From the IMG/VR virus record IMGVR_UViG_3300030406_001976, positions 1 through 32,124 of that record: 32,124 nt of DNA. One strand, given 5' to 3'. The notes beneath the pieces are model-generated. The model saw only the letters and a list, made by a program, of their open reading frames with translations, ran no database searches and had not been told where the DNA came from. The stretch is from a virus. Made by a program: the position numbers and the translations under genes. Below, in pieces: positions 18,620-26,585 of this stretch. Within the stretch, counting starts at the first letter, position 1; each line of letters starts with the position of its first letter.

Positions 18620-21415
18620 ATGGCAAATACCATTAAACAAAAACGTGGCAGTGGTAGCAATCCTTCTGCTAGTGATTTAGAAGTAGGTGAATTAGCCATA
18701 AGGACCGATAATGGTCATCTGTTTACAAAAAATGATAGCGGTACAGTAATTGAACACGCAGATATAGGGGTTTTAACTGCTAATACATTACTTGGTAGAA
18801 GAGTAAGTAATGGCACTCCTCAAGAGCTTACAGCAAGCCAAGTAAGAACAATAATAAATGTGGCTGATGGTGCTACAAACGTCACGAATAATAATCAGTT
18901 AACAAATGGTGCGGGCTACATAACATCTTCAAATAGTGCTGTTACTGGTAAATTGTCCAAAGCGGGTGGCACTATAACTGGGAACTTACAAGTAAATGGA
19001 ACAACTACCTTAAATGGCAATATAGATTTGGGAGATGCTTCTGCTGAAACTGTAACTTTTACAGCAGTTGTTGACAGTGATATTTATCCAGAAATTGATA
19101 GTTCGCACGACTTAGGAAATGCTTTTCAAAAGTGGGATAATGTTTATGCAAATACTTTTACAGGTAATGCAGCAACCGCAACAAAACTAGCTACGGCTAG
19201 AACAATTGCAGGGACAAGTTTTGACGGTTCTGCTAATATAAATATTTCTTTTAATAGTTTAACTAATAAACCAACAATACCTACAAACAATAATCAACTG
19301 ACTAATGGTGCAGGCTATTTAACTTCTTCATCTAATTTAAACGCTGATAAATTAAGTTCTGGAACAATACCAGCAGCAAGAATAGGAAGTAATGCGGTCA
19401 CTTTTGCTCGTATGCAAAATATTGCTGAAGAACGATTGATAGGAAGAGTAAGTAGTGGGACAGGAGATCCCGAAGCATTGACACAAGCACAAGTAAGAAC
19501 TTTCTTAGGTCTTGCAAGTTCAGCGACAACTGACACTACAAATGCGTCAAATATTTCATCTGGAACTATTCCTGCTGCACGAATCGGCAATGATGCCGTA
19601 ACTTACGCAAAGATCCAGAATGTATCTGCTACAAACAGAATACTAGGAAGAGATTCAGCTGGTGCTGGAAATATTGAAGAGATAACTCCTGCAAATTTAC
19701 GCACTATGCTTAATGTTGCTGACGGTGCAAATAATATTACTAACAACAACCAACTTACAAACGGAGCTGGCTACATAACTTCTCAAAGGTCTGTTGAATC
19801 CGTACAGGATATTGTTGGGGGTATGGTGTCAGGTAACTCTGAATCTGGCATAACAGTCACTTATCAAGATTCTGATGGCACAATAGATTTTTCAGTGTCT
19901 TCGCAAACTGATAATAATTTTACTAATGCTTTAAAAACTAAACTTGATGGTATAGCTTCAAGTGCAACAAATGTCACAAATAATAATCAACTTACCAACG
20001 GGGCTGGCTATATAACCTCTCAGAGATCTGTTGAATCAGTACAAGATATTGTCGGAGGGATGGTTTCTGGCAACTCGGAGTCAGGTATCACAGTTACTTA
20101 CCAAGATTCAGACGGTACTTTAGATTTTTCTGTTGCGTCACAAACTGATCAAAATTTTACAACAGCATTAAAAAATAAATTAGACGGTATAGCGTCTTCA
20201 GCTACAAATGTCACGAATAACAATCAACTCACAAATGGGGCAGGGTATATAACCTCACAGAGATCAGTTGAGTCAGTGCAGGATATTGTTGGAGCTATGG
20301 TTACAGGTAATACTGAGTCAGGAATATCAGTTACATATCAAGATGCAGATGGGACTTTAGACTTCTCAGTTTCTTCTCAGACAGATAATAACTTTACAAC
20401 AGCGTTGAAAAATAAATTAGACGGTATTGAGTCTGGAGCTAAGGCAGATCAAACAGGTACAGAAATAAGAGCATTATTAGCAGCTACGAGCAATACAAAT
20501 ATTTTAAATGATACTTTACTTTCAAAATTAAATGGTATTGCTTCTGGCGCTACTAATGTAACTAATAATAACCAAATTTCTAATGGTGCTGGTTATATAA
20601 CTTCAAGTAATTCAGCAATCACTAATAAGATGCCTAAAAGTGGAGGCACATTTTCTGGAACAGTAAATTTAGGTGGAAATGACATAGATAATGTCGGCAG
20701 AATGACAGGTAACGGTTTAACTCTAGAAGATGACGGAGAAAGCTCACCTACTTTTAAATTAGTTACAGATGATGAAGCTCCATATGCTATGCAAATCAGC
20801 AATAGTACCTATTCAACTCAGCAAGTAGGTTTACTTACTTTTGTAAAGAATAACGGTGATGCTGAACTTTTACATGCTGGAAACGGAGAGTTTAAAGACT
20901 TTTCTATTGGAACCTCATTAGGAATTGGTTTTATTACTTGTATTAAGATTGACGGATCAGAACAACAAGTCGAACTTTATAAATCGGGTTCTAAAGTATT
21001 TGAAACTGTTGGAAGTGGAGTTGAGGTCACTGGTTCCTGTCAGGCTGGCAGCTTTAAAAGTGACGATTTGCTTCCACCAGTTTTTCAGTTTACTAACGGA
21101 AACAAGGCGGGACAGTTAAGCGTAGGCAATGCAAACATAGACGGCACAGGTACTGTAACTTTAGAATCTGATTTTAATGTTTCTTCAGTCAGTGATTCAG
21201 GAAGTGGTGTTTATGACATTTCATTTGACGAAAATTATAAAAACAGTCACTACATAGTTACGGCAGAAAGTGGTTTAATATCTTCAACTAGCAGCGCATC
21301 AACTACAGTTGATATAAGAAATATGTCTAGTTCTGGTTTTAGATTATTAATTGAGGATGTAGATGCTGGTTTTATTGATGTTGATTATGTTATGTTTTCT
21401 ATTTTTGAAAATTAA
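18620..21415 (+). CDS. Tail fibre-type protein 3 with a 79-aa tandem repeat
   Basis: 931 residues, with AGGAG (18606-18610) as a good ribosome binding site. It shares with the previous gene the N-terminal module MANTIKQKRGSGSNPSASDL and GELAIRTDNGHLFT. The motif NNQLTNGAGY (NNQISNGAGY in one copy) occurs six times (codons near 18896, 19295, 19751, 19988, 20225, 20573). Three of these belong to a tandem repeat. The pair SGTIPAARIGSNAVTFARMQ / SGTIPAARIGNDAVTYAKIQ is a second repeat. The C-terminal domain (about 800-931), with ISFDENYKNSHYIVTAESG, could be the receptor-binding head. Probably the long host-attachment fibre. Confidence 0.85.
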   Translation: MANTIKQKRGSGSNPSASDLEVGELAIRTDNGHLFTKNDSGTVIEHADIGVLTANTLLGRRVSNGTPQELTASQVRTIINVADGATNVTNNNQLTNGAGYITSSNSAVTGKLSKAGGTITGNLQVNGTTTLNGNIDLGDASAETVTFTAVVDSDIYPEIDSSHDLGNAFQKWDNVYANTFTGNAATATKLATARTIAGTSFDGSANINISFNSLTNKPTIPTNNNQLTNGAGYLTSSSNLNADKLSSGTIPAARIGSNAVTFARMQNIAEERLIGRVSSGTGDPEALTQAQVRTFLGLASSATTDTTNASNISSGTIPAARIGNDAVTYAKIQNVSATNRILGRDSAGAGNIEEITPANLRTMLNVADGANNITNNNQLTNGAGYITSQRSVESVQDIVGGMVSGNSESGITVTYQDSDGTIDFSVSSQTDNNFTNALKTKLDGIASSATNVTNNNQLTNGAGYITSQRSVESVQDIVGGMVSGNSESGITVTYQDSDGTLDFSVASQTDQNFTTALKNKLDGIASSATNVTNNNQLTNGAGYITSQRSVESVQDIVGAMVTGNTESGISVTYQDADGTLDFSVSSQTDNNFTTALKNKLDGIESGAKADQTGTEIRALLAATSNTNILNDTLLSKLNGIASGATNVTNNNQISNGAGYITSSNSAITNKMPKSGGTFSGTVNLGGNDIDNVGRMTGNGLTLEDDGESSPTFKLVTDDEAPYAMQISNSTYSTQQVGLLTFVKNNGDAELLHAGNGEFKDFSIGTSLGIGFITCIKIDGSEQQVELYKSGSKVFETVGSGVEVTGSCQAGSFKSDDLLPPVFQFTNGNKAGQLSVGNANIDGTGTVTLESDFNVSSVSDSGSGVYDISFDENYKNSHYIVTAESGLISSTSSASTTVDIRNMSSSGFRLLIEDVDAGFIDVDYVMFSIFEN
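19751..20425 (+). repeat. Three tandem copies of a 237-base (79-aa) fibre repeat
   Basis: Copies start at 19751, 19988 and 20225. Each has the order QLTNGAGYITSQRSVESVQD, then a segment with GNSESGITVTYQDSDGT, then TDNNFTNALKTKLDGI. The protein sequence is nearly the same in all three, but many third codon positions differ, for example in the GAGYITSQRS part. The third copy diverges after LDGI at about 20425. Confidence 0.9.
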
Positions 21416-21417
21416 GC

Positions 21418-21540
21418 TTGAGAAATTCACATATACAAGATCCTAGATTTTCTGGTCATCCTTCGTTTATTAGTAAATCTTTAAAAAGAAAAAAGAAAAA
21501 AAAATCAAAAAATGCTATAAATATAATAAAAAAAATTTAA
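21418..21540 (+). CDS. Possible 40-aa basic protein with TTG start
   Basis: From TTG at 21418 to TAA at 21538-21540 the frame encodes 40 residues. It has RNSHIQDPRFSGHPSFIS and a Lys/Arg-rich end. It starts three bases after the fibre stop, and its stop overlaps the ATG of the next gene (TAATG). The composition is like the other small basic proteins in the window. The start is not ATG and no Shine-Dalgarno sequence is visible, so this is a weak call. Confidence 0.35.
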   Translation: MRNSHIQDPRFSGHPSFISKSLKRKKKKKSKNAINIIKKI

Positions 21541-21725
21541 TGAAAGAATTTATAGAAAGACAGATCGAAGAATGGCAAAAACAGATTATGCAGCAAAAAG
21601 AACACATTCTTAGATTAGAAGGAGCTGTATCTAGTTATGTTTTACTTCTTGAACAATTAAAGTCTGAGAATATAACTGAGCAAAAGCCAGTTAAGAAACC
21701 GAGTAACAAAACAGTCAAAGTTTAA
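21540..21725 (+). CDS. 61-aa coiled-coil hypothetical protein
   Basis: 61 residues, with a likely amphipathic coiled coil from about 1 to 42 (IERQIEEWQKQIMQQKEHIL then RLEGAVSSYVLLLEQL). The end is basic (VKKPSNKTVKV). No family recognised. Its place after the fibre genes and before the barrel gene could suggest a role in lysis or virion maturation, but nothing shows it. The ATG at 21540 overlaps the preceding stop. Confidence 0.6.
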   Translation: MKEFIERQIEEWQKQIMQQKEHILRLEGAVSSYVLLLEQLKSENITEQKPVKKPSNKTVKV

Positions 21726-21734
21726 AAAATCAAT

Positions 21735-21743
21735 TAATATAAA
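21735..21743 (+). promoter_or_regulatory. TAATATAAA element before the barrel gene, candidate late promoter
   Basis: TAATATAAA is 29 bases before the ATG at 21764, in the same position as before the tail tube and first fibre genes. The rest of the leader is almost only A and T. Confidence 0.35.
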
Positions 21744-21763
21744 TTTTTAATTTATTTAATTAA

Positions 21764-22120
21764 ATGCTTAAAAAACTTTTAGTCGCTGCTGCTGTAACGA
21801 CTTGTTCTAGTCCTGTTTTTGCTGGATTTTATTTAAACGTGGAAAATAACGCTACGTTTTTAAAAGATAGCGATTTCCAAGGATCTTCGACAGATTTGCA
21901 CGTAGGTTATGAAAAATCTTCGGAACGCGGTTCATTTTACCTCCAAGGCGGTCCGCTCTTAAGTAATCCAGAGGGCAAAACTCAATCCACAGACGTATCA
22001 GCAAAGATTGGCGGTTCTGTAAATGCAACAGATAAGACTTCAATCTATGGTGAGCTAAGTGGTGTTTTTGCAGATGAAAATGTTTTCGGCACCAAATTAG
22101 GGTTGAAATTTGCTTTTTGA
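21764..22120 (+). CDS. Small outer-membrane beta-barrel (porin-like) protein
   Basis: 118 residues. The signal peptide (MLKKLLVAAAVTTCSSPVFA, cleavage after Ala20) is followed by a short beta-barrel of alternating strands (FYLNVENNATFLKDSDFQGS, TDLHVGYEKSS, RGSFYLQGGPL, DVSAKIGGSVN, KTSIYGELSGVF, GTKLGLKFAF). It ends in Phe, the signal for outer-membrane insertion. Similar phage-coded porin-like proteins occur in marine cyanophages as I remember. It would sit in the host outer membrane during infection. Roles such as receptor masking, permeability change or superinfection exclusion are inference. Confidence 0.75.
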   Translation: MLKKLLVAAAVTTCSSPVFAGFYLNVENNATFLKDSDFQGSSTDLHVGYEKSSERGSFYLQGGPLLSNPEGKTQSTDVSAKIGGSVNATDKTSIYGELSGVFADENVFGTKLGLKFAF

Positions 22121-22228
22121 TTTCCTGATTAAATAATCTAAAGTAAATAGAGGTGTGCTTACACACACTGCTGTGACTATTAACATATAAATAGGCATAG
22201 CGACTGCACCTCTAACTATATTTTTCAT
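22097..22228 (-). CDS. 43-aa single-pass membrane protein (possible)
   Basis: From the ATG complementary to 22226-22228 the minus strand encodes 43 residues with one strong membrane segment (GAVAMPIYMLIVTAVCVSTP) and a basic C-terminus (RKSKSKFQP). The frame is open further upstream, but that part lies in the divergent gene, so the shorter form is preferred. The start codon shares the sequence CATG with the start of the divergent gene at 22227. Its 3' end overlaps the barrel gene. No family recognised. The membrane topology supports coding. Confidence 0.5.
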   Translation of the reverse strand: MKNIVRGAVAMPIYMLIVTAVCVSTPLFTLDYLIRKSKSKFQP

Positions 22229-22712
22229 GGAATACCCAGAAATAGATTTACCAGATACAAACAACATACTCATTCCACCCACAACAATTTTTTATCCGCC
22301 CCTAGCAGACGTTCCATATTTAGATCCTCTTCTACTTCCAAGTCTGGAACAAGTTCAGTCGGGTTTGGCAGATCAGGAAAATAATTCTGAAGAAGAAAAG
22401 GAAGAAGCCGAGGAAGTGCAAGATATACAGCAAGAGCAGATACCAACAAACCTCCCGAAAAACCTAGAAGATACTTCATTAGAAACTGTAGCTACATTTA
22501 ATGTACCATTTATAAATTATGAATTTCCAGTACCTTCACCAGAGGTAATAGCGTCAAGTGTTATAGCTGCTGGAACTGCAAGCGTTGTGAGCGTGGCGGG
22601 CGGGGTAGCTTTGCAAGCTGTAGTAGGGCAAATGAAGAAAATATTTAAGAAGATATTTACTAAGGTTTTAAAGAAGGAAGTTGCTTCTTTGAAGAAAAAA
22701 TCTGAGGGTTAG
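22227..22712 (+). CDS. Membrane protein of cyanophage type, unknown function
   Basis: 161 residues. The N-terminal part is acidic and Pro-rich (MEYPEIDLPDTNNILIPPTT). The middle (about 50-75) is very acidic. Then VPFINYEFPVPSPEVIASSV leads into a hydrophobic helix (AAGTASVVSVAGGVALQA), and a basic amphipathic end (MKKIFKKIFTKVLKK) follows. The FPVPSPEVIA plus Ala/Gly/Val helix plus Lys-rich tail is a pattern I recall from marine cyanophage hypothetical proteins. A single-pass membrane protein with a cytoplasmic cationic helix is likely. It could act at the membrane during assembly or lysis. Confidence 0.7.
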   Translation: MEYPEIDLPDTNNILIPPTTIFYPPLADVPYLDPLLLPSLEQVQSGLADQENNSEEEKEEAEEVQDIQQEQIPTNLPKNLEDTSLETVATFNVPFINYEFPVPSPEVIASSVIAAGTASVVSVAGGVALQAVVGQMKKIFKKIFTKVLKKEVASLKKKSEG

Positions 22713-23220
22713 CTTTTACAAAAGACCTTATATTTATTACATCACTGCAAAGACCAGCAAATTTTGATTTAGGATTTATCATATAACCACTTGCATGGAG
22801 CTGTGAACACTTCAAAACTCTCACTAACTGCTTATCATGCACTTGCTTGCTTAATTCTTCTTTGGCTAGGTCTAGTTTTACTTTTGCTAAATCAGAACAT
22901 GTTTGGTTATTAACTCCCAAGGGAACCATAAATGACAATTGGAAGCCCCACCCTTCATTTATGCTGTATGTCTCTTCACCTTGAGCATCATTGCCTGTAT
23001 AAAAAGGGGTAAAACTCATTGAAGGTTGAGAGCAAACAAGATTTCCATATTGATTCTTGCTTGTCGCTCCTTGATTAATATTCATATTTTGATTAATTAT
23101 TGATGAGTTTCCTACAGCATTAGGTTGCGCTTGAACATTAGTATCACCTTCAGCTCTAGAAGAATTACTGACTAAACACACTGAGAGAAGTGATAACACT
23201 AGTAGTTGTGATCGAATCAT
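22660..23220 (-). CDS. Secreted cysteine-containing protein of cyanophage type
   Basis: 186 residues with a signal peptide (MIRSQLLVLSLLSVCLVSNS, cleavage probably after SRA). The mature part has Asn/Gln-rich sequence (NSSIINQNMNINQGATSKNQ), then MSFTPFYTGNDAQGEET, GWGFQLSFMVPLG, and four Cys, which could form two disulfides in the periplasm. The FTPFYTGND...GWGxQxxFMVPL pattern is one I recall in marine cyanophage proteins. Function unknown. It is the last gene of a leftward cassette, overlaps the previous by 56 bases, and runs tail-to-tail into the gene at 22227. Confidence 0.7.
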   Translation of the reverse strand: MIRSQLLVLSLLSVCLVSNSSRAEGDTNVQAQPNAVGNSSIINQNMNINQGATSKNQYGNLVCSQPSMSFTPFYTGNDAQGEETYSINEGWGFQLSFMVPLGVNNQTCSDLAKVKLDLAKEELSKQVHDKQLVRVLKCSQLHASGYMINPKSKFAGLCSDVINIRSFVKANPQIFSSKKQLPSLKP

Positions 23221-23530
23221 CTTGAGTTACTTTTTCAATCATTTGTGAAGCTGCTCTTGTTGTGGTGGTAAATGTCCAATCAGCTGTATTGTCTGTTGGT
23301 GTAAATATAGCGTCAGTTGCTTCAATACCTCCACTAGTTGCTGAAGTTACAGTAATATTTGAACCTTCCCAAGTATTAATTGCTGACCCATATTTTTCTG
23401 TCACTATTTGGCGGGTTATTGTCTGAGTAGTATTTTCAGTTCGGTTGCTACTCCCAGTACTCCAAGTCGGTATAGGATTTGCAAAAACTGGACTAGTAAC
23501 AAAAAACAAAAAAGGAATAAATTTTTTCAT
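23165..23530 (-). CDS. Secreted protein with NPIPTW motif, cyanophage type
   Basis: 121 residues. The signal peptide MKKFIPFLFFVTSPVFA is followed by NPIPTWSTGSSNRTENTTQT at the mature N-terminus. The rest is Thr/Ser/Ile rich and beta-like, and ends in SLSVFSQ. I recall this 'NPIPTW ... TWEGSNIT ... SLSVFSQ' pattern from conserved hypothetical proteins of marine cyanophages, where it goes with the Cys-containing secreted protein. Function unknown. It starts in the ATGA overlap with the upstream gene, so they are co-translated. Confidence 0.7.
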   Translation of the reverse strand: MKKFIPFLFFVTSPVFANPIPTWSTGSSNRTENTTQTITRQIVTEKYGSAINTWEGSNITVTSATSGGIEATDAIFTPTDNTADWTFTTTTRAASQMIEKVTQDDSITTTSVITSLSVFSQ

Positions 23531-23781
23531 TTAATACCTACATTATTATCTTTATTATCTACTATTTTAGCAGCATTATTTGGTTTCTTTTTATTAACAG
23601 AAATGCCATAGCTCCCAAGGACCCCACTGGTAAGTCCTGCTAAAAAAGCACCGTCATTACGAATCTTATCCATATAACCTAATGTCATCATTGCTAATGA
23701 CCAGACCAAAATCATAAAACGTACACCATGGCCGAAAATTTCAGCCCAGTCTGTACCTTCTTTTTCTTCTTGTGGTTCCAT
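23527..23781 (-). CDS. 84-aa two-span membrane protein, holin-like candidate
   Basis: 84 residues. An acidic N-terminus (MEPQEEKEGTDWAEIFGHG) is followed by a first hydrophobic segment (VRFMILVWSLAMMTLGYM), a short charged loop (DKIRND), a second (GAFLAGLTSGVLGSYGI) and a basic C-terminus. Size and topology are compatible with a holin, but no motif proves it. First gene of the leftward cassette, preceded by a 10-bp inverted repeat just before its start. In the whole window no endolysin is recognised, so a lysis role of this cassette is inference. Confidence 0.65.
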   Translation of the reverse strand: MEPQEEKEGTDWAEIFGHGVRFMILVWSLAMMTLGYMDKIRNDGAFLAGLTSGVLGSYGISVNKKKPNNAAKIVDNKDNNVGIK

Positions 23782-23788
23782 AAAAGAA

Positions 23789-23811
23789 AACCCTATTTAT
23801 TAAATAGGGTT
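23789..23811. promoter_or_regulatory. Palindrome 1: 10-bp perfect inverted repeat before the leftward cassette
   Basis: AACCCTATTT at 23789-23798 and AAATAGGGTT at 23802-23811 with a 3-base loop. Read leftward it is followed by TTTTCTTTTA and then the ATG at 23781, so it could be a terminator/attenuator in the 5' leader or an operator. Read rightward it is followed by AATTTTG. Confidence 0.6.
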
Positions 23812-23826
23812 AATTTTGTGTGAGAC

Positions 23827-23842
23827 TTGCTAAACTTAGCAA
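23827..23842. promoter_or_regulatory. Palindrome 2: TTGCTAA-AC-TTAGCAA
   Basis: A 7-bp perfect inverted repeat with a 2-base centre. Its left half can act as the -35 box of a possible rightward promoter (TTGCTA, 17-base spacer, TATCTT at 23850-23855). That arrangement is typical of operators. It is followed by ATTTTTA, so a short rightward terminator is the other possibility. Confidence 0.45.
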
Positions 23843-23850
23843 ATTTTTAT

Positions 23851-23864
23851 ATCTTTGGAAAGAT
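23851..23864. promoter_or_regulatory. Palindrome 3: ATCTTT-GG-AAAGAT
   Basis: A 6-bp perfect inverted repeat with a 2-base centre, 14 bases before the ATG at 23879. It overlaps the -10/start region of the possible rightward promoter. It is the third palindrome in the same 97-base divergent gap. Confidence 0.45.
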
Positions 23865-23878
23865 CGAAAAAAAAATAA

Positions 23879-24163
23879 ATGAAAGAAATAATGAATATGC
23901 TTAAAGGTAAATTATCTTTAGAAGAAGAATTTGAATTAGAAAGACAAATATTAAAAATTAAAAAACAAGATGATGTTAAAGAGTTAAAAGAATATGCAAT
24001 AGAATTACTTACTACTGGTTGCAAACAAGGTCATTTTATTAATTTAGCTTTAGAAATAATTATTGATCAACAAGAACAGATATTTAAATTTGAATCAATA
24101 AAAAAAACAAAAAAAGCGACCTTTTTAGATCGCTTGATTTATGTTTTGTTTAATAAGAAGTAG
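23879..24163 (+). CDS. 94-aa helical protein, weakly NblA-like
   Basis: 94 residues, mostly two amphipathic helices: KLSLEEEFELERQILKIKKQ, then DVKELKEYAIELLTTGCKQG, then a tail HFINLALEIIIDQQEQ and a basic end. The opening LSLEEEFEL followed by a charged helix, 'elk-e-ai-LL' and a second helix resembles the NblA family (LSLEQ-x-F...), which triggers phycobilisome degradation. NblA genes occur in some cyanophages. The similarity is weak and length is longer than NblA (about 60), so a different helical hairpin protein is possible. If real, it would cut light-harvesting load in the infected host. Confidence 0.45.
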   Translation: MKEIMNMLKGKLSLEEEFELERQILKIKKQDDVKELKEYAIELLTTGCKQGHFINLALEIIIDQQEQIFKFESIKKTKKATFLDRLIYVLFNKK

Positions 24164-24359
24164 AGGACTTACTGACTGTTATGCTTGATACTAAGCCTAT
24201 TTAGGAGTGTTAACCTTATGCCCGCTTAATATTCCTCGGTGGGAACTCATGTCTTTTTTAGAATCATGTCGAAAAATGGCTTGAAGGGCAATCGGGCCAC
24301 ATAATTCCAAAAGAGCAGCTATAACCTTCGTAAGGAATTAATCACAAAGTGTCATGCCT
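24164..24359. other. Intergenic 196 bases at a convergent junction, possible structured RNA
   Basis: No coding frame of note lies here. The sequence is richer in GC than the flanking genes and can pair in several places: TGCCC (24219-24223) with GGGCA (24286-24290), TTCC (24232-24235) with GGAA (24242-24245), and TAATTCC (24302-24308) with GGAATTA (24334-24340). It contains TCGGGCCAC (24292-24300), shared with the other convergent junction at 30347-30355. It may be a small RNA, a bidirectional terminator region or a relic gene. No known family recognised. Confidence 0.35.
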
Positions 24360-24530
24360 CTAAAGAGTTAGGTCTTCATTTGTAATGTCAAACCATACTC
24401 CACGTTCCTCAATAATACCTGTAATTTTATCGGTCTTTGTAATTTCTGAAAATTGAAAAACTTTTTTATTATTTGGTGAATAATAAATTTGACCGATATA
24501 TGGATTTATTGGGAATTTTATTGGATTCAT
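24360..24530 (-). CDS. 56-aa hypothetical protein, last gene of the leftward operon
   Basis: ATG complementary to 24528-24530, TAG at 24360-24362. The product has IKFPINPYIGQIYYSPN, then KVFQFSEITKTDKITGI and a closing EERGVWFDITNEDLTL. It looks like a small beta-rich domain with a Trp and Tyr core. It is seven bases after the SSB gene in the same direction, so it is likely translated from the same operon. No family recognised. Confidence 0.6.
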   Translation of the reverse strand: MNPIKFPINPYIGQIYYSPNNKKVFQFSEITKTDKITGIIEERGVWFDITNEDLTL

Positions 24531-24537
24531 TAAACAT

Positions 24538-24882
24538 TTAAAAAGGTAGGTCGTCTGGCAGCTCAGGTTGGTTCGCTTGTACGTTTACAGTTCTTTCTGA
24601 GGCTTCTTTGTGAGGCATAGGCTGTATTTTGCCAGAGTTGCCCCATAGACCTCCCCAAAGCGAAAACCCAGCAATTTCATCATAGTCTTTTCTACTTTTA
24701 TAAACACGAACTGTCGTGCCATCTATTTCAGCATTATCGACAGCTTGCAGAATCCATTGTGCAGCTTTTCTACCCTCTTCACAAGTGAAGTCAATAATTA
24801 CATTTTGGTCTGGTGCGTTTTCATTCTGGCTATTGTTGCCAACAATTCTTAGCTTTGCAAAAAAAGCAGGGGTGTTACTCAT
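24538..24882 (-). CDS. ssb: Single-stranded DNA-binding protein
   Basis: 114 residues from ATG at 24882. A longer upstream frame would start inside the HTH gene. An OB-fold like order is visible (AFFAKLRIVGNN, QNVIIDFTCEEGRKAAQWIL, GTTVRVYKSRKDYDEIAGF) and the C-terminus is the acidic PELPDDLPF tail, the typical docking tip of bacterial and phage SSBs. It coats ssDNA in replication and recombination. It lies with a Sak3-like annealing protein and an exonuclease, a usual phage set. The preceding HTH gene ends two bases before the start. Confidence 0.75.
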   Translation of the reverse strand: MSNTPAFFAKLRIVGNNSQNENAPDQNVIIDFTCEEGRKAAQWILQAVDNAEIDGTTVRVYKSRKDYDEIAGFSLWGGLWGNSGKIQPMPHKEASERTVNVQANQPELPDDLPF

Positions 24883-24884
24883 TA

Positions 24885-25103
24885 TTAAAAAGGTTTGATA
24901 GGGGTGATTTGGTTTGCCTCTTCCCATGCGAGGACTTTGTGTAGTTGGTATCTTATTTTAGGAGTACCAAAAGCTACAAAGGGTAATTCGTAATATTCAG
25001 GACCATAATTTCTATGCCTCCAGCTCTTGATTGTGCTAGGACTAAGGCCATATCTTTCTGCTAATTGGTCTGTTGTTAGAAATTGAGTTTCTGTGATGGT
25101 CAT
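24885..25103 (-). CDS. Small helix-turn-helix (MerR/excisionase-like) DNA-binding protein
   Basis: 72 residues. FLTTDQLAERYGLSPSTIKS followed by WRHRNYGPEYYELP is the HTH_17 pattern of excisionase- or MerR-like single domains, with a basic recognition helix and a wing region. It could regulate the early operon or act as a small recombination factor. No integrase is present in the window, so calling it excisionase would be unsafe. The start overlaps the Sak3-like stop in ATGA. Confidence 0.75.
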   Translation of the reverse strand: MTITETQFLTTDQLAERYGLSPSTIKSWRHRNYGPEYYELPFVAFGTPKIRYQLHKVLAWEEANQITPIKPF

Positions 25104-25762
25104 GGTGTTAATTCAGCTTTTTTAGTGTTTACTAAATCACATAAGACAATGTATTCGTCTTGACTGATTTTTCTTTGAGTATAACGCACCTCTAAGTTTG
25201 ATTCATGTTGCTTAAGTTGCTCAAGTGATGTTGTTTTTTCAATAGCTGTTTTAGCTGCAATAAAAACATTTTGATGAGGTTGCGCTGCTTTTGCCTTGTA
25301 TGGCTTTTCTTTCTGTGCTTTTTCTTGTTCTGTTGCTCTTGCAACTTCATTGAAAGCCCAAAGCTCATAACCCAGAGAAAAGGTAAAAGCTGCACAGGCA
25401 GCCAAAGCTCTACGGTGTGAATCTGAAACATCCCTTGCAGAAATCTTGTCAATTTTAATGGGATCGTTGCGATTGTTCATGATGGCATAAGGAAACAAAC
25501 CAGTTTCACCGCCTTGAGGGTCTGTGAAATAGCACATTAAATAGCCAGATCCGTCAGGTGCTTTCCATACCGAATCCAAAAAGGAAGGGCTTGTAGGCGA
25601 TTCTGAGTTGAGTTTTAAATGAAAATTCCAGCCTTTTGCATGAATATTCAAATAATATGCGATTCTTGACCATTTGCAGTATTGTCGGCCAGCTTTCTCA
25701 TAAACATCTTCTGTTGTGACTATGTTGTCCAGAATTGGTCTTTCCATTGTTGAAATTGTCAT
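25100..25762 (-). CDS. Single-strand annealing protein, Sak3/DUF1071-like
   Basis: 220 residues. GRQYCKWSRIAYYLN near the N-terminus, then GSGYLMCYFTDPQGGETG, and the key segment RNDPIKIDKISARDVSDSHR with RALAACAAFTFSLGYELWAF are typical for DUF1071 (Sak3-like) proteins. They anneal complementary ssDNA after exonuclease resection, as Redbeta, Erf and RecT do. The C-terminal part is a charged helix. It lies between the RecE-like exonuclease and SSB, 16 bases after the former, in one operon. Confidence 0.75.
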   Translation of the reverse strand: MTISTMERPILDNIVTTEDVYEKAGRQYCKWSRIAYYLNIHAKGWNFHLKLNSESPTSPSFLDSVWKAPDGSGYLMCYFTDPQGGETGLFPYAIMNNRNDPIKIDKISARDVSDSHRRALAACAAFTFSLGYELWAFNEVARATEQEKAQKEKPYKAKAAQPHQNVFIAAKTAIEKTTSLEQLKQHESNLEVRYTQRKISQDEYIVLCDLVNTKKAELTP

Positions 25763-25778
25763 TTTAAGTTACCTCGAT

Positions 25779-26585
25779 TTAGAGCCATTTAGGGGATGCT
25801 AGTGTTTGTATTCCTTCAGGACAAGCATTTGTGTATCCTTGCCAGAATTTTGTTTTGGTTGCCTCAAGTATTTTTTGAAGCATTTCTTTTTGTAGTTCAT
25901 AACCTTTTTTGATGAAATTAGGAGATAGTTCATAAACTCCAACAGAGTAAGGGTGAACTTTTTCTACAACAATAAATATGAAGCGTTCTGCTCCAGTTGC
26001 TTGTAGGTAATGAGCAGCCTGCAGATGATAATTAAATGCAACTACTGTCCTTGTAAATTTGTCGGGGTTTGCTCCAGACTCACCAGTTGTTTTAAGGTCA
26101 ATAACCATATCACCTACTACATAATCGCAGCGAGCTTTGCATGGTAAACCTGTTTCACTATGAGTCCACCAGTAAGATTGTTCAGCCTTTCCAGATGTGT
26201 CATCTATGACATATTTTTTTGCAAATTCATTTTTGCTCAGGGCATTGTATATGCCCATAAATGTGTCCATTTCTGATGTTGTAAAAGTTTCTCTGCCACT
26301 TTGTGCAAGTTGCGAAGCTAACTTTTTACCTTCTTTAGATCGTTTATCGTCCAATAAGGCATATCTTTCTGGAAAGAGTTTAGGTTCTAAACAAAAGCAA
26401 TGAACCATAGAACCTATTCTCATGGCTGGAGTAGTTGTTTTAGGTGGATTGTCTTTACCAAATTTTTTTTGATATAAAGCTTCCAGCCCATTTGTGATGC
26501 CATACTTTAAATCACTGGCAGCCCAGTCTTTTGCTGCTCTATAGATGTTTTCTGGAACATCATGGCCTTGAATAAAATCAGTCAT
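25779..26585 (-). CDS. RecE-like PD-(D/E)XK exonuclease
   Basis: 268 residues. MRIGSMVHCFCLEP (His62) is followed by E135 in AEQSYWW, D154 in KARCDYV, the IDLKTT core with D163 and K165, and YHLQAAHYLQ (Gln189). This is the order of motifs in the RecE/YqaJ group of DNA exonucleases, which degrade the 5' strand and hand ssDNA to an annealing protein. That partner (Sak3-like) is the next gene. The start at 26585 overlaps the preceding stop by 8 bases. Confidence 0.85.
   Translation of the reverse strand: MTDFIQGHDVPENIYRAAKDWAASDLKYGITNGLEALYQKKFGKDNPPKTTTPAMRIGSMVHCFCLEPKLFPERYALLDDKRSKEGKKLASQLAQSGRETFTTSEMDTFMGIYNALSKNEFAKKYVIDDTSGKAEQSYWWTHSETGLPCKARCDYVVGDMVIDLKTTGESGANPDKFTRTVVAFNYHLQAAHYLQATGAERFIFIVVEKVHPYSVGVYELSPNFIKKGYELQKEMLQKILEATKTKFWQGYTNACPEGIQTLASPKWL

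Follow-up and report, generated by a model that had tools for sequence, protein, structure and literature searches.

A linked set of four membrane and secreted protein genes in marine cyanophages, tentatively read as a late envelope-opening cassette

A four-gene cassette in a siphovirus fragment

We analysed a 32,124-bp stretch of viral DNA (IMG/VR record IMGVR_UViG_3300030406_001976, positions 1 to 32,124; hereafter the window) that carries a group of small genes for predicted membrane or secreted proteins, four of which, here named A to D, form the core of a cassette. The window covers part of the genome of a siphovirus akin to the Prochlorococcus phages MED4-184 and MED4-117, and its major capsid protein is 81% identical to those of the Prochlorococcus siphoviruses MED4-184/P-HS2 and MED4-117 and 65% identical to that of KBS-S-2A. 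Since it starts just ahead of the scaffold and capsid genes, the window is without the terminase and portal end (the MED4-184 genome has 38,327 bp). A megablast search of window positions 20000-26000 against phages gave 0 matches, and the DNA is therefore divergent, though the proteins are close. The four core genes are as follows:

A: 22227-22712, plus strand, 161 amino acids (aa), acidic, proline-rich, predicted span near the C-terminus, lysine-rich tail; phrog_9426
B: 23527-23781, minus strand, 84 aa, two predicted membrane spans; DUF6450, phrog_21865/721/2714; heads the leftward operon
C: 23165-23530, minus strand, 121 aa, predicted secreted beta protein; phrog_650; C-terminus S-(V/I)-F-x-Q
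D: 22660-23220, minus strand, 186 aa, predicted secreted, four conserved cysteines; phrog_1755/848

The first-pass annotation of this DNA had listed five open reading frames (ORFs) with membrane or periplasmic products here. All five are present where it placed them, and the leftward coupling that it described was borne out, with overlaps of 4 bp between B and C and 56 bp between C and D; the tails of D and A share 53 bp. Among PHROG families, A best matches phrog_9426 (E = 1.8e-11), C phrog_650 (1.6e-12), and D phrog_1755 and phrog_848 (8e-26 and 7e-24, respectively). B matches phrog_21865, phrog_721, and phrog_2714 (E = 2.7e-12 to 2e-7) as well as the Pfam family DUF6450 (1.5e-7), and the S-SM1 relative of C matches DUF6322. 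All codon changes in B are synonymous relative to the near contigs L009 (6 of 6) and L010 (8 of 8). Profile comparison linked two further families to the core with a probability of 96.7 each, namely phrog_570 of myoviruses, hereafter A2, as a homologue of A, and phrog_564, hereafter E, as a paralogue of C. The PHROGs of the cassette are all of unknown function, save phrog_568 (plasmid stability; not in the window). The family match of D runs across in-frame stops in S-H38 (L007), MED4-117 (L092), and P-SSP7 (L006), so the annotated D starts may be off, or the N-terminus of the family may be unused there.

Linkage across cyanophages of three tail types

Four scans of viral contigs with D relatives yielded 320 loci (80 each of 290, 446, 585, and 579 confirmed candidates), of which 54 had 3.5 kb on both sides and were usable in a flank test, the 266 that were too short being left out. 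These 54 loci comprised 12 of the window type, 8 of the MED4-184 type, 22 from myoviruses, and 12 from podoviruses, and all of them carried A or A2 together with B and C, although the linkage counts are not independent, as the profiles were built from the same loci and many loci come from related populations. Moreover, 283 loci had 700 bp or more of sequence upstream of D, and in every one of them C preceded D on its strand (frame end -117 to +194 bp from the D domain). When B served as the anchor, A2, C, D, and E were found in 12 of the 13 loci with 5.5 kb downstream (exception, L433), the other 67 of the 80 B-anchored loci being too short and left out. B lies about 9 kb away from the C-D block in S-H38, therefore an absent neighbour need not mean an absent gene.

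Among 22 named phage records, D, C, and B occurred in the identical 11 and in none of the other 11, and A or A2 was found in the same 11 carriers and nowhere else (weakly in S-H38, 4.4e-5).

Carriers of A-D: P-SCSP2, P-SSP7, S-H38, MED4-184, S-SM1, P-HM2, MED4-117, NATL1A-7, P-RSP2, P-SSM2, Syn9
Non-carriers of A-D: KBS-S-2A, Syn5, PSS2, S-PM2, S-CBS2, S-CBS1, S-H1, HTVC010P, HTVC008M, Ma-LMM01, T7

Because 8 of the 11 carriers had been chosen through a D or B match, the carrier fraction is meaningless, and it is the agreement between families that counts. Co-occurrence across cyanophage genomes, which the first-pass annotation had put forward as a check, is thus strong in both the flanked contigs and the named records. 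D relatives were present in 151 phage records, the first word of whose names was Synechococcus, Prochlorococcus, cyanophage, or Tiamatvirus (143), marine (6), or uncultured (2). The spread among marine cyanophages that had been proposed at first pass is borne out by these names, with the correction that not two or three members but four are widespread. The core is made up of the four families A to D, which are found in podo-, sipho-, and myoviruses.

We also scanned bacterial genome contigs with a pair of myovirus D sequences and obtained eight loci (six metagenome-assembled genomes, one single-amplified genome, and one isolate assembly), which we take for phage contigs in view of their mixed taxa, although host copies of the genes may exist, the patterns having come from two myovirus sequences only. 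The D proteins in a Nonlabens xiamenensis contig (L337, 188 kb) and a Prochlorococcus single-amplified genome (L342, 189 kb) are 73% and 50% identical to cyanomyovirus D, respectively, and, judging by their length, these two contigs could be whole phage genomes inside bacterial assemblies.

Gene orders, exchange, and the published myovirus cluster

D-bearing contigs fall into four main gene orders. Genes 042-045 of P-SSP7 are A, B, C, and D in that order, while in P-SCSP2 A points rightward and B-C-D, the sole leftward genes of its annotated genome, run the other way. MED4-184 carries B-E-C-D leftward, with the A homologue (phrog_570) and a phrog_568 gene rightward; in S-SM1, B, phrog_568, phrog_605, and A2 share a strand, with E-C-D on the opposite one. 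The 56-bp overlap between C and D recurs in P-SCSP2 and extends to 172 bp in S-SM1 and 178 bp in P-HM2, and the two genes are annotated without overlap in P-SSP7, P-RSP2, and S-H38.

We found that the window cassette is 93% (B), 83% (D), 64% (C), and 63% (A) identical to that of the podovirus P-SCSP2, compared with 37% (B) and 22% (D) for the siphovirus MED4-184, for which C and A gave no match at E 1e-3. These identities indicate that the cassette has been exchanged between tail types, with the capsid following siphovirus MED4-184 and the cassette following podovirus P-SCSP2. By eye, some 60 bp ahead of B are similar in MED4-184 (L008, upstream of 6105) and P-SCSP2 (L005, upstream of 4383), which suggests that control DNA moves together with the cassette. 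Given that the carriers span three tail morphotypes, yet the 151 records with D bear only cyanophage, marine, or uncultured names, we consider the role of the cassette to be host-directed and not tail-directed.

Sullivan et al. (2010) described a 'mobile hypothetical cluster' of T4-like cyanophages comprising T4-GCs 218, 219, 234, 235, and 237 and, in the available part of that paper, placed it among cassettes with mobility signatures, a 'plasmid stability' gene being a frequent companion (PMC3037559). Taken together, the S-SM1 gene notes and our family matches equate B with 218, A2 with 234, D with 235, C with 236, E with 237, the plasmid-stability gene (PS) with 414, and phrog_605 with 219; linkage in myoviruses was therefore already published. 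Window B, C, and D share PHROG families with S-SM1 218, 236, and 235, A is homologous to the 234 family, and S-PM2, without the cluster in the available text of PMC3037559, is also without A-D here. In contrast, the account in that text concerns myoviruses, states no function, and lists 235 and 237 but not 236, whereas the four-gene core also occurs, in other gene orders, in podo- and siphoviruses and leaves 219, 414, and E outside. Our literature search, which covered mostly open-licence papers, found no published statement of a core common to podo- and siphoviruses or of its function, no paper on DUF6450 or DUF6322 by name or accession, and no function for the cassette genes in the available parts of PMC4646655 and PMC10575957.

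The reported mobility signatures and frequent 'plasmid stability' gene would fit mere co-mobility, that is, a mobile cassette spread by recombination whose genes have unrelated functions. We regard this as very improbable, because the same four families are held together by four gene orders and strand layouts, while E, PS, and G219 were not matched in any of the 12 window-type contigs that had 3.5-kb flanks on either side, and E and PS were also missing from podovirus contigs with full flanks.

Predicted features of the proteins

The first 100 residues of A include 2 basic and 22 acidic ones, followed by a hydrophobic span at about 107-129 and a lysine-rich C-terminus. The median net charge of A/A2 is -14/-13 ahead of the strongest segment and +7.5/+9.5 behind it, with 16%/13% proline ahead. 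Since a second, weak hydrophobic segment was often called (55 of 92 A and 64 of 152 A2 sequences), the single span is an interpretation. B has two hydrophobic segments in 220 of 229 distinct sequences, with a net positive C-tail in 219 of these 220 and a median net charge of -2 before, 0 between, and +4 after the segments. The N-termini of window C and D are signal-like, as judged from sequence and hydrophobicity. Window C has no cysteine, and 288 of 292 distinct C sequences carry S-(V/I)-F-x-Q at the C-terminus. Window D has five cysteines, one within the signal stretch and four in the mature part, and four of the ten columns that are invariant among 65 diverse D sequences are cysteines. A lipobox-like motif was nearly absent from the distinct sequences of C (1/292), D (1/304), and E (0/137). 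These features support, across hundreds of relatives, the membrane or secreted character that had been predicted for the window's products at first pass.

AlphaFold modelled C (pLDDT 82.6, pTM 0.42) with two strands of 23 and 24 residues, and D (pLDDT 69.8, pTM 0.39) as a disordered stretch followed by a beta hairpin and a 39-residue helix. The structural matches of C are weak (VIA Z ≤ 4.0) and fall mostly on oligomeric beta-barrel stems, including a phage upper-tail protein (top Foldseek match, E = 0.014), the tails of phi29 and P68 (within the first eight), pore proteins (best Foldseek E = 0.12), and the FliF ring. The predicted strand pair is reminiscent of aerolysin/lysenin-type pores, the FliF MS-ring collar, and phage tail knobs, in which strands of this form make up oligomeric barrels; there is no sequence relation, and the likeness is a lead only, as any long hairpin may match. 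The best hit of the C profile against PDB sequences had E = 0.74; against viral models, C gave three matches with E < 0.001, two nameless and one an uncharacterised protein of an uncultured phage, with cyanophage Gp165 at E = 0.92. For D, nothing better than E = 0.68 was found by profile against PDB sequences, Foldseek gave no match at E ≤ 0.001, and the best VIA Z (4.7) concerned only the long helix, in unrelated proteins. The combination of beta strand and long helix had raised the idea of D as a mini-TolC, which was rejected (hhalign against E. coli TolC, probability 0.2%).

The tail-protein matches of C, together with the P-SSP7 copies that adjoin tail-fibre genes, raise the question of whether C and D, and perhaps also A, belong to the virion, for example as tail-knob or collar proteins. 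This appears improbable, as those matches are weak, C, D, and E have signal-like N-termini, and the carriers are myo-, podo-, and siphoviruses with unrelated tails. In addition, the cryo-electron microscopy models of P-SCSP1u cover the gp16 portal, gp19 capsid, gp22 adaptor, gp23 nozzle, and gp28 fibre and no cassette product in the available account, which concerns a partial virion.

Late-promoter sequences and genome position

We searched the 100 bp upstream of distinct myovirus genes for TAAATA, with the expectation taken from a first-order model. The motif was found upstream of B in 54 of 65 sequences (6.6 expected) and of E in 49 of 60 (8.2 expected), at a median of 27-30 bp before the start, and the stricter ATAAATA in 33 of 65 (2.5 expected) and 17 of 60 (2.9 expected), respectively. 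Internal genes had it far less often (C, 11/67; D, 2/73; A2, 1/77; PS, 3/71). In the available text of PMC2984593, NATAAATA is reported as the late promoter of cyanomyoviruses, and both myovirus operon heads are therefore probably late. The P-SSP7 cassette lies at the genome end with tail and packaging genes, a position that would place it in late class III of the PMC9860041 scheme. No gene-level timing for cassette genes was found in the available parts of PMC5082946 and PMC9860041.

Envelope remodelling without lysis, in the form of superinfection exclusion, receptor masking, or stabilisation of the infected-cell envelope, would likewise call for secreted and membrane proteins, which are here confined to phages of one host lineage in the searched records, and a gene for a small beta-barrel protein (Phage_OMP) neighbours the cassette of the window as well as that of 10 of the 22 myovirus loci with full flanks. 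Exclusion genes, however, are usually early, single genes, whereas late-promoter sequences stand at both myovirus operon heads and four genes are kept together across very different phages; we therefore hold remodelling to be rather unlikely. Cyanobacterial Sec export serves the plasma membrane and the thylakoid alike, and the exported proteins might act in the thylakoid lumen or membrane, aiding photosynthesis or redox balance during infection, as would suit the P-HM2 cassette beside hli genes and the S-H38 cassette near transaldolase and plastoquinol terminal oxidase genes. Podo- and siphovirus copies, however, adjoin tail, terminase, or replication genes and not photosynthesis genes, and the PHROG and Pfam searches revealed no similarity to photosynthetic proteins, which makes a thylakoid role quite improbable.

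The genome slot of the cassette is in line with a role in lysis. T7 has its two-span class II holin (17.5) between the tail fibre and small terminase genes and its Rz/Rz1-like genes (18.5/18.7) ahead of the large terminase gene, and the cassettes of P-SSP7 and NATL1A-7 occupy the tail fibre-terminase interval where T7 keeps these genes. B is predicted to have two spans as well, and several phages have C and D genes that overlap in the manner of Rz and Rz1. Unlike the T7 region, the cassette has no family match and no lipoprotein (o-spanin) signal. Similarly, in the related siphovirus KBS-S-2A, the interval between the tail fibre and leftward replication genes encodes an endolysin (phrog_181, 1.4e-37) together with two small proteins, each with a hydrophobic stretch at the N-terminus, and none of A-D, and the matching interval is filled by the cassette in MED4-184 and the window. 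Proteins of 52-56 aa are encoded next to the cassette or within its slot in MED4-184 (L008:6171-6335), NATL1A-7 (L093:5010-5168), and Syn5 (L095:11666-11836); the MED4-184 and Syn5 copies match phrog_2738, and the NATL1A-7 copy is alike by eye only.

No endolysin was matched by PHROG or Pfam in the window genes scanned near the cassette. A Pfam scan of 91 ORFs (P-SSP7, 16; P-SCSP2, 20; MED4-184, 24; window, 31) detected no wall hydrolase among the best 25 of 44 families, the remaining 19 being expected to be weaker than about 5e-6 by list order. Ten further MED4-184 ORFs gave no wall hydrolase with Pfam, and no lysis family was found when some of the MED4-184 and window ORFs were compared with PHROGs. 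Over the 22 records, phrog_181 matched KBS-S-2A, Ma-LMM01, and weakly HTVC008M, Amidase_2 (PF01510) matched T7 only, and Peptidase_M15_4 (PF13539) matched S-H38 alone above the cut-off and HTVC010P below it.

A tentative role in late envelope opening

Conserved linkage, sequence-level export and membrane features, late-promoter sequences in myoviruses, genome position, and exchange between tail types lead us to favour, tentatively and with somewhat less than even confidence, A-D as a late envelope-opening cassette (lysis or egress) of marine cyanophages on Prochlorococcus and Synechococcus. Lysis or virion release, one of the roles suggested at first pass, is thus the best-supported reading, by the late-promoter sequences, the T7 lysis slot, and the endolysin in the matching slot of one relative, with the activity itself being what we infer.

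In an envelope-opening cassette, B would be a two-span inner-membrane protein with a class II holin-like charge pattern that acts as an inner-membrane pore or switch. A, anchored by its C-terminal-side span with a cationic tail, would extend a proline-rich, acidic arm into the periplasm. C would be exported, as would its paralogue E in the phages that have it, and its pair of very long beta strands might allow it to form an oligomeric ring or barrel, which D, exported and probably disulphide-bonded, may link to the outer membrane. The cassette would then act like a holin and spanin pair, outside the spanin family. Like class II holins, B is short, with two spans and a charged C-tail; unlike them, it matches only DUF6450 and unknown-function PHROGs and has no endolysin match among its scanned neighbours. 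Rz/Rz1 spanins are a coiled-coil pair, whereas the cassette has secreted beta or cysteine-rich proteins, and the lipobox-bearing outer-membrane lipoprotein of two-component spanins has no counterpart in C, D, or E. A bolder version, in which A and B in the inner membrane, a periplasmic barrel of C (with E), and D as an outer-membrane or disulphide-locked end make up a trans-envelope egress machine common to all three tail types and unrelated to the holin-endolysin-spanin route, seems unlikely.

Several observations weigh against envelope opening. No cassette member matches a holin, spanin, or endolysin family (PHROG, Pfam) and no catalytic domain was found in the cassette, which therefore cannot alone explain wall degradation. 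Two carriers may have wall-degrading candidates elsewhere: S-H38 has its Peptidase_M15_4 match within a 1196-aa frame, and P-SSP7_050 (L355:40359-42065, 568 aa) has a weak endolysin-PHROG match (9.8e-10, residues 444-542), making it a candidate hidden lysin of P-SSP7. Pfam is blunt here, having missed the KBS-S-2A endolysin. Six cassette-negative marine cyanophages (Syn5, PSS2, S-PM2, S-CBS1, S-CBS2, and S-H1) are also without the three hydrolase families tested, so that a swap of endolysin for cassette rests on one contrast, KBS-S-2A. Moreover, the structure models of C and D are partial, TAAATA before the internal gene C is also above chance (11 of 67 versus 1.8 expected), and no infection time course or mutant of cassette genes was found in the literature.

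New here are the core in podo- and siphoviruses, the T4-like late-promoter sequences at the myovirus operon heads, the position in the T7 holin/spanin slot, the endolysin in the matching slot of KBS-S-2A, and the exchange of the cassette between tail types. Viral lysis of Prochlorococcus matters for ocean carbon, and we found no paper in the open-licence literature that assigns the release of Prochlorococcus phages to genes. Four late envelope genes common to podo-, sipho-, and myoviruses make a short knock-out list, and the egress machine, if true, would be a main route of release for phages that infect the most abundant phototroph of the ocean. The available text of PMC8776855 reports that T7-like cyanophages have already been engineered, and the question is therefore directly testable.

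Neighbouring features of the window

The cassette in the window is accompanied by four further features:

Phage_OMP small beta-barrel gene: 21764-22120, plus strand, 118 aa; PF24653, phrog_417; associated, outside the core
43-aa ORF: 22097-22228, minus strand, single predicted span; local to the nearest relatives, doubtful member
Hairpin followed by a U-rich stretch: 23789-23811, minus strand, terminator- or attenuator-like; ends 7 nt upstream of the B start codon
Palindrome: 23827-23843, no strand assigned, possible operator and second stem of the same fold; upstream of B

The 43-aa ORF, which the first-pass annotation had counted as a member of the set, occurs in just 3 of 433 loci and has a weak coding signal; its ATG shares 2 nt with the divergent ATG of A. 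It is a local extra and is excluded from the core. The 118-aa gene matches Phage_OMP (E = 2.9e-32) and is a possible member that had been left out at first pass; with 3.5-kb flanks on both sides of D, it was found in none of the 12 window-type loci. The minus strand of 23776-23850 folds at -18.6 kcal/mol (z = -3.7), and the hairpin stem is kept in the nearest contigs L009 and L010. The hairpin and palindrome could be an attenuator and operator that restrain the leftward operon. Elsewhere in the window, a repetitive gene of 931 aa (18620-21415) contains an internal duplication at window positions 19763-20204 with 79% DNA identity.

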